Virus record (IMG/VR): IMGVR_UViG_3300027985_000695
Coordinates: 1-63,746 of that record
Length of the DNA: 63,746 nucleotides
Strand: one strand, 5' to 3'
Source of the DNA: a virus
Positions 61,977-62,885 of the stretch are shown here, piece after piece. The notes under the pieces were generated by a model that searched no databases, had not been told where the DNA came from, and saw nothing but the letters and a program-made list of their open reading frames with translations. How positions within the stretch are numbered: the first letter of the stretch is position 1; every line of letters begins with the position of its first letter. The translations under genes were made by a program, and so were the position numbers.

Positions 61977-62885
61977 ATGTGTCACATTTTGATGATAGAA
62001 GACGATGCCGTTGCGGCTGAAGCCGCCGCGAGGATTCTTGAAAGGTCGCCAATCGACAACTTCTCCGTCGATGCGGTCAGGACTTTCTCGGAAGCGATGG
62101 AGCGCCTTGAAACATGCTTCTACGACGCTGTGTTGCTGGACTTGTTCCTGCCTGACTCGTCTGGCGTTGACACGGTGAGGAGAGCGAGAGAGATGTGCCC
62201 CGCGATGCCGATAATCGTATTGTCAGGTATCGACGACTGCAGGACGACGCAGCAATGCATAGACGCAGGGGCCGACTGCTTTGTAGTGAAGCCGTATATC
62301 AATCTGCTGCCGCGTCAGGTTTACAGCGTCGTGCAGCTTGTACACTCAAAGAACAAACTGAAGGCGCAAAGCATACAGCTTGAGAAGGCAATGAAGCTGT
62401 ATGAGGGCATACTTAACGCATCGCCTGACTGGATAGTTCGCACAACTCCCGATGGAGTCATTATATATGCAAACAGCGCGGCTTGCGCTGGAGCAGGTAA
62501 AGACATCAACGATGTTATCGGAACATCAATCTACGACTACATCTCTCCTGAGTACCACCAGCTTGCAAGGCTAAACTATGCAAGACTGTCGCAAGAGAGC
62601 AAGGTTGTGACAGGCAGTGAGTTCAAGGTGTGCGGCAGGTGGATTGCATGGATCAAAGTTGCGATATTTGACTCCAACGGAAACATCGAGGAGGTACAGT
62701 CGATAGGCCGCGACATGACGCAGTTTCATACGCAGGCTCTTGAGTTTGTACAGCACCTTGAAGACAAATACAACGCATTCAGCACGGCGAGTGAGGGCGC
62801 GGTTGAAACTACGCGGCAGGTGATGTCAGACACGATCAAGCTAATCGCACAGGCGAAGCAGGAATTAATCAGTGGAAGGCAATGA
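61977..62885 (+). CDS. Response regulator receiver plus PAS domain protein
   Basis: A 302-residue protein. Residues 1-125 are a REC domain: acidic pocket HILMIEDD, phosphoacceptor Asp in YDAVLLDLFLPDSSG near residue 55, switch Ser in IIVLSGIDD near 83 and Lys in CFVVKPYI near 106. A coiled linker (KLKAQSIQLEKAMKLYE) leads to a PAS domain at about 143-255 (LNASPDWIVRTTPDGVIIYA, GTSIYDYISPE, SIGRDMTQ). A helical tail follows, with no HTH, GGDEF or kinase domain. It lies in the late strand between lysis and portal genes. It may sense or divert host two-component signalling. Confidence 0.85.
   Translation: MCHILMIEDDAVAAEAAARILERSPIDNFSVDAVRTFSEAMERLETCFYDAVLLDLFLPDSSGVDTVRRAREMCPAMPIIVLSGIDDCRTTQQCIDAGADCFVVKPYINLLPRQVYSVVQLVHSKNKLKAQSIQLEKAMKLYEGILNASPDWIVRTTPDGVIIYANSAACAGAGKDINDVIGTSIYDYISPEYHQLARLNYARLSQESKVVTGSEFKVCGRWIAWIKVAIFDSNGNIEEVQSIGRDMTQFHTQALEFVQHLEDKYNAFSTASEGAVETTRQVMSDTIKLIAQAKQELISGRQ

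Follow-up and report, generated by a model that had tools for sequence, protein, structure and literature searches.

Genetic organization of the region between the terminase and portal genes

The DNA analysed here (the window, 63,746 nt) corresponds to an IMG/VR virus record. Both of its ends carry the same 144 nt as a perfect direct repeat, from which we infer that the genome is complete. The region of interest shows the gene order terminase, Amidase_3 amidase, transmembrane (TM) protein, Hydrolase_2 hydrolase, Rz-like gene with a nested lipoprotein gene, a gene encoding a receiver and a PAS domain (REC-PAS), a gene encoding a single-TM coiled-coil protein (TMcc), and portal (Table 1). The portal protein, which spans the window ends, matches phrog_332 (1.1e-42), and a major head protein was also identified. 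By sequence, the Rz-like candidate contains a hydrophobic stretch at the N-terminus and a coil, and the Rz1-like candidate, whose ATG at 61662 is preceded by GGAGG, has a signal sequence with the lipobox-like end AMQGC. REC-PAS begins 3 nt past this nested pair and is overlapped by TMcc in 14 nt, and the portal gene overlaps TMcc by 4 nt.

A promoter scan found no sigma-70-like sites in positions 57500-63746, so the late genes of this region are presumably read together. No Rfam match was obtained in positions 57000-63746, and the tRNA search found none. REC-PAS shows a GC content of 0.52 and a GC3 of 0.62, compared to about 0.58 and 0.75 for most window genes, and the main part of TMcc (GC 0.51) is also lower than most of them.

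Table 1. Features of the window region containing REC-PAS and TMcc
Feature	Position	Strand	Evidence and remarks
Terminase large subunit (TerL)	58076..59548	+	phrog_2 3.2e-26
N-acetylmuramoyl-L-alanine amidase (Amidase_3)	59997..60581	+	Pfam 4.1e-19
Single-TM protein, holin candidate by position alone	60562..60867	+	no family match in Pfam/PHROGs
Cell wall hydrolase (Hydrolase_2)	60860..61315	+	Pfam 4.5e-13
Rz-like inner-membrane spanin candidate, 190 aa	61319..61891	+	phrog_89 6.5e-3, phrog_739 9.5e-3 (weak)
Rz1-like lipoprotein candidate	61662..61973	+	other frame, mostly within the Rz-like gene; no Pfam/PHROGs match
REC-PAS, 302 aa, ATG start	61977..62885	+	ORF list, Pfam, residue alignment, AlphaFold2
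REC-PAS layout (residues)			receiver 1-~107, helix 105-148, PAS ~150-246, C-terminal helix 248-298
TMcc, single-TM coiled-coil gene, 144 aa	62872..63306	+	related to L075:6968-7495
Portal protein, 5' part	63303..63746	+	continues at window 1-1947 via the 144-nt end repeat

The REC-PAS protein

Pfam assigned residues 4-107 of REC-PAS to Response_reg (1.1e-18), with a PF00072 score of 67.8 bits that is above the curated cut-off of 30.2, and residues 146-251 to PAS_4 (2.8e-11). The phosphorylation site is complete, with the acidic pair E8/D9, the phosphoacceptor D55, S83 and K105, as an earlier sequence-only reading of this DNA had stated. No output domain, nor any further domain after the PAS, was found in the Pfam scan or in the AlphaFold2 model, and the Pfam scan showed no C-terminal winged-helix DNA-binding domain of the OmpR/PhoB type. 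According to its domain order, REC-PAS is an output-less receiver-PAS regulator.

The structure prediction that the earlier reading had proposed returned both folds: the AlphaFold2 model obtained with the 21-row alignment A5 has a mean pLDDT of 94.3, and shows the receiver, a single unbroken helix joining it to the PAS, PAS strands and helices at residues 152-246, and then one helix of 51 residues. The description of a PAS followed by no output domain therefore holds in Pfam terms, but the C-terminus is not bare, as it ends in this long helix. Without an alignment the pLDDT is 39, and since 17 of the 21 rows of A5 are partial or cover receiver stretches only, the PAS part of the model rests on few sequences.

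No close cellular relative of REC-PAS was found in genome contigs, plasmids or PDB sequences: two scans of genome contigs confirmed no bacterial source, and the best near-full-length match in 454 plasmid records was 27%. The top PDB fold matches are sensor kinase, RssB, cyclase and receiver structures, and none of the best 50 is a REC-PAS protein of this arrangement; similarly, none of the 50 BFVD matches listed is full-length, and their highest TM-score over the query is 0.42. Scanning viral contigs with REC-PAS, TMcc or alignment A2 as query gave no confirmed match. In isolate phage records, no match reached 80% coverage of a query, and the TMcc of locus L137 had no match whatsoever. One of these records, L042 (MT835528.1), is filed as a phage and carries ordinary bacterial genes, and such records inflate phage receiver hits; other isolate-phage hits were called bacterial contigs filed as phage, as judged from their labels.

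The adjacent TMcc gene and the portal lineage

The TMcc protein has a helical N-terminal part and one TM segment (core 107-125), with a K/R-rich stretch directly ahead of it. Its start codon is a GTG located inside the overlap with REC-PAS, with AGGA 8 nt upstream. Lysis proteins of the XhlA/holin type are small, have a single TM and a helical cytosolic part, and are encoded in the lysis region. TMcc is similar to them in size, in its single TM, in the helical cytosolic part and in its place in the lysis region, but the window protein has no lysis-family match in Pfam or PHROGs, where it shows weak hits alone, to families without function; for L020, L034, L081 and L082, the lysis-family matches are all weak.

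A search with the portal found 40 related loci. PF00072 was looked for in 20 of these 40 records and was present in none of them, and no ORF matching REC-PAS or TMcc was found in the fetched stretches of the portal-related loci. The check proposed in the sequence-only reading, a search for similar genes next to portals in related phages, was thus negative in these records, and REC-PAS does not belong to the core genes of its lineage and is dispensable there. By eye, the nearest locus by portal identity (L034) shows a similar layout, with terminase, lipoprotein and other genes, a TM-coil gene and portal, and a different gene occupies the place of the receiver. Because portal relatives lacking the receiver have small TM-coil proteins near lysis or portal genes, TMcc was at first regarded as an ordinary lysis gene with no link to the receiver, a reading overturned by the receiver loci found later. 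The terminase ORFs of L035 (5225-7642) and L038 (5200-7587), of about 800 aa, show by eye an apparent intein-like insert directly downstream of where the Walker A region begins.

REC-PAS and TMcc in other phages

Stand-alone REC-PAS genes were seen in the window, L075, L080, L088, L089 and L137, and in all six the next gene is a TMcc gene. The REC-PAS assignment is based on Pfam for the window, L075, L080 and L089, and on sequence for L137; the frame of L088 is broken. Locus L137 comes from a third viral scan, in which only two of the four loci obtained were new: the pair is present in L137, and L135 has a longer REC-PAS protein without a partner.

The closest REC-PAS is that of L075, with 39% identity over 267 aa, and pairwise comparison of its TMcc with that of the window gave an E of 1e-7. 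L075 also keeps the gene order of the window: an Amidase_2 endolysin gene and a TM gene precede an Rz-like gene (weak match to phrog_739, 1.1e-3) in which a lipoprotein frame is nested, and REC-PAS and TMcc come next. The window portal had no match in the L075 record, in a search of 23 chosen records run without a positive control. Furthermore, a 319-aa protein of the tail/surface region (window 9571-10530; L075 3034-3999) is 70% identical between the two; its presence in both, with unmatched portals, is probably due to recent exchange, and the identity of this surface-type protein hints at a shared host.

Recurrence of receivers and of the single-TM partner gene

Receiver alignments were used in two scans of IMG/VR viral contigs, which found 12 and 65 loci, 71 of them distinct besides the window. 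Once the window was added and L099, whose ORF runs off the contig, was removed, the analysed set contained 71 loci, or 47 at 70% identity. Many metagenomic phages thus carry receivers, and the earlier statement that two-component parts are rare in phages of this size is only partly right. The phrog_2 terminase profile matches 13 of 25 chosen records of receiver loci; the phage nature of the other 12 rests on IMG/VR and on the neighbours seen.

The next gene was analysed after removing from the 47 representatives the OmpR-type receivers L062, L063, L066, L067, L078, L084 and L093, which were assigned to this type by visual inspection of the C-terminal part (of these, L062 and L084 had counted as positives through a secreted protein and a kinase start), as well as the window, L065, L068, L069 and L072, which were used or picked as seeds. 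Of the 35 remaining receivers, 27 were testable, i.e., a gene begins within 60 nt. The same rule was applied to receivers and controls: an ORF start at no more than 60 nt, 70-200 aa and exactly one TM. Such a gene follows 12 of the 27 receivers and 17 of 281 control genes (Fisher p 3e-7), and 8 of 18 receivers at 40% clustering (p 2e-5); with a length-matched control (15/197), the values are 4e-6 for the first set and 1e-4 for the second, all these p-values being descriptive since the trend had already been noticed when the test was written. Receivers L088, whose reading frame is interrupted ahead of the PAS, and L129, with a TM below threshold, were scored as negatives, and the control is conservative because two of its positives, L072 and L088, are module genes reached from another ORF. 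Partner genes often begin a few bases from the receiver stop. The pair of REC-PAS and a membrane protein gene noticed in the sequence-only reading is therefore well supported, as numerous other phages have a small single-TM gene directly behind the receiver. Part of the pairing could reflect receiver insertion sites, given that the receiver-less portal relatives have TM-coil genes.

Similarity of receivers and partners rises together in 16 pairs (Mantel rho 0.58, 0/5000 permutations), although joint inheritance may give the same result. Receivers fused to a coil and a TM occur in L068, L104, L112 and L118; however, a TM outside the receiver but within the receiver protein was found in 8/35 proteins, and 40/257 control ORFs of 130-360 aa contain exactly one TM. 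Fusion is thus not clearly in excess, and it is taken as supporting anatomy only. In locus L072, a second single-TM gene (5525-5998) lies just upstream of the receiver, which is thus flanked by two. A second receiver arrangement, tandem receivers and then opposite-strand genes, was observed in L096, L111, L113 and L119, on contigs of 219-548 kb.

In the 47 representatives, the acidic pair, D55 and the Ser/Thr are conserved in all sequences and the Lys in 44. Conservation of D55 and of the acidic pair is partly selected, because the scan patterns held D55 and one of them also the acidic pair; the Ser/Thr and Lys were in none of the patterns. Loss of the phosphoacceptor Asp in relatives, which according to the sequence-only reading would speak against its proposal, was thus not observed, though with an Asp contained in the search patterns.

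Lysis genes and histidine kinases at receiver loci

Lysis genes were also found beside other receivers: L072 shows the receiver, a TM gene and then a GH108 endolysin, and in L086 a receiver-TM protein is followed 12 nt on by an endolysin. L117 resembles the lysis-adjacent loci by eye, with no lysis profile match. L077 adjoins a tail fibre gene and L088 is near a DNA polymerase gene, with no lysis gene seen nearby in either, nor clearly at L104 or L112; lysis is therefore perhaps not the sole use of the module.

HATPase_c was above cut-off in 8 of the 25 chosen records. Sets of kinase, receiver, receiver and TMcc were found in the phage contigs L065, L077, L079, L082 and L121, and the arrangement receiver-TM, kinase and receiver in L104, L112 and L118. 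PAS or GAF sensors were detected by Pfam in five of six kinases scanned (L065, L068, L082, L104, L106 and L121). No HATPase_c was above cut-off in the window, so its receiver would need a host kinase or a small phosphodonor. The window shows a sub-threshold HATPase_c match alone (25775-26029, 9.2e-6), within a giant protein of 2731 aa for which matches to DarB-like and methyltransferase families were obtained as well.

Proposed function of the pair

The observed domains, residues, gene order and recurrent pairing are best explained if REC-PAS and TMcc together make up a single phosphorylation switch located at the inner membrane of the host. D55 would receive phosphate from a donor that in this phage is probably a histidine kinase of the host, and the PAS may supply a second, small-molecule input. 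REC-PAS is predicted to contact the helical part of TMcc in the cytosol, to which its C-terminal helix would transmit the resulting change, and the output would be the state of TMcc in the membrane. Such an output is suggested by the output-less receivers that adjoin, and sometimes carry, a membrane helix. Since the pair sits among amidase, hydrolase and Rz/Rz1-like genes, gating or timing of lysis would be the likeliest output here. The time of lysis is commonly attributed to an intrinsic clock of the holin; if the proposal is true, phosphorylation would act as an input at the membrane through which the cell state influences when infection ends.

A functional pairing of REC-PAS and TMcc is likely. 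A role of the pair in lysis in this phage, raised in the sequence-only reading and in agreement with its position and the L075, L072 and L086 loci, is put forward tentatively, with slightly less than an even chance, and we place the switch as a whole, with a membrane coiled-coil output, a host kinase as the probable input and lysis as the event that it probably gates, just below the midpoint too. More doubtful is a wider proposal, in which these genes form a portable phage two-component module that acts through a single-pass membrane coiled coil and not through transcription. A kinase, a relay receiver, an output receiver and the TM partner would make up its complete versions; that of the window would be one of the reduced versions, which would borrow a host kinase, and in lysis cassettes the cell state would decide the time of lysis.

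The pair could instead act as a decoy for a host pathway, with a TMcc-tethered receiver that drains phosphate from host kinases, a sink also considered in the sequence-only reading, or mimics a host regulator, altering stress or envelope responses. The intact phosphorylation site, the lack of a window kinase above cut-off and the hint of a host shared with L075 agree with this, and tethering would place the receiver near membrane kinases; however, the records that carry their own kinase argue against a host-kinase sink as the general purpose, and a sink would need neither a PAS domain nor a dedicated partner. We consider the decoy unlikely. Small membrane proteins without enzymatic domains also act in superinfection exclusion, and modules were found away from lysis genes, as would be expected if a second-infection or defence signal changed TMcc and thereby blocked DNA entry or protected the membrane. 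Against such a sentinel, the pair is located in this phage between the genes for the lysis enzymes and that for the portal, and no exclusion or defence family was matched in Pfam or PHROGs. We consider the sentinel decidedly improbable.

More improbable still is that the receiver is sporadic bacterial cargo of little effect, and the small TM gene an ordinary late gene following it by chance. The term sporadic cargo, already used in the sequence-only reading, suits the portal lineage of the window, where the receiver was absent from the records examined and relatives have TM-coil genes at the same place without it, and the low GC and GC3 of REC-PAS point in the same direction. It does not suit the module, which recurs in other phages: the excess of pairing over controls, the conservation of active-site residues outside the search patterns and the synteny with L075 all argue against the cargo reading.

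Comparison with known systems

Phage kinases and receivers are already catalogued, mostly without function (BFVD entries, phrog_731 and phrog_857). In the literature searched, which left most subscription journals and all preprints outside, no description was found of a phage receiver with a TM-coil partner, and the published phage receivers seen are PhoB-like or cREC. Alteromonas phage R8W carries a PhoB-like regulator, annotated as DNA-binding in the available part of its description (PMC8228385); it is, as REC-PAS, a two-component regulator gene in a phage, but REC-PAS has no DNA-binding domain. RoeA, a PhoB-like protein that controls the lysis cassette of Yersinia entomophaga, likewise links a two-component-type regulator with a phage-type lysis cassette, although it is the reverse of REC-PAS: bacterial, DNA-binding and, in the available part of the report, without a phosphorylation domain (PMC10101115). 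Phage Spo0A homologues are described without a receiver in the part available of PMC10294663. The cREC of jumbo phages, otherwise unrelated, shares a receiver-like fold with REC-PAS and, according to the accessible parts of PMC7824862 and PMC9503650, is associated with NAD/ADP-ribose and RNA-repair enzymes, and in no case with kinases. The receiver of REC-PAS is conventional, and its neighbours are lysis and packaging genes, with no linkage to NAD/ADP-ribose or RNA-repair genes seen.

The same domain order is found in output-less REC-PAS regulators of archaea, which also have no output domain and are expected to act by protein contacts; according to the available part of Galperin et al. (2018, PMC5847659), there had been no study of any of them, and their partners are called unknown. 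The window protein differs from them in being phage-borne and in having a recurrent membrane partner gene, and TMcc would, if the proposal is true, be a first candidate partner for regulators of this type. Furthermore, the module is small and thus testable in a laboratory host.
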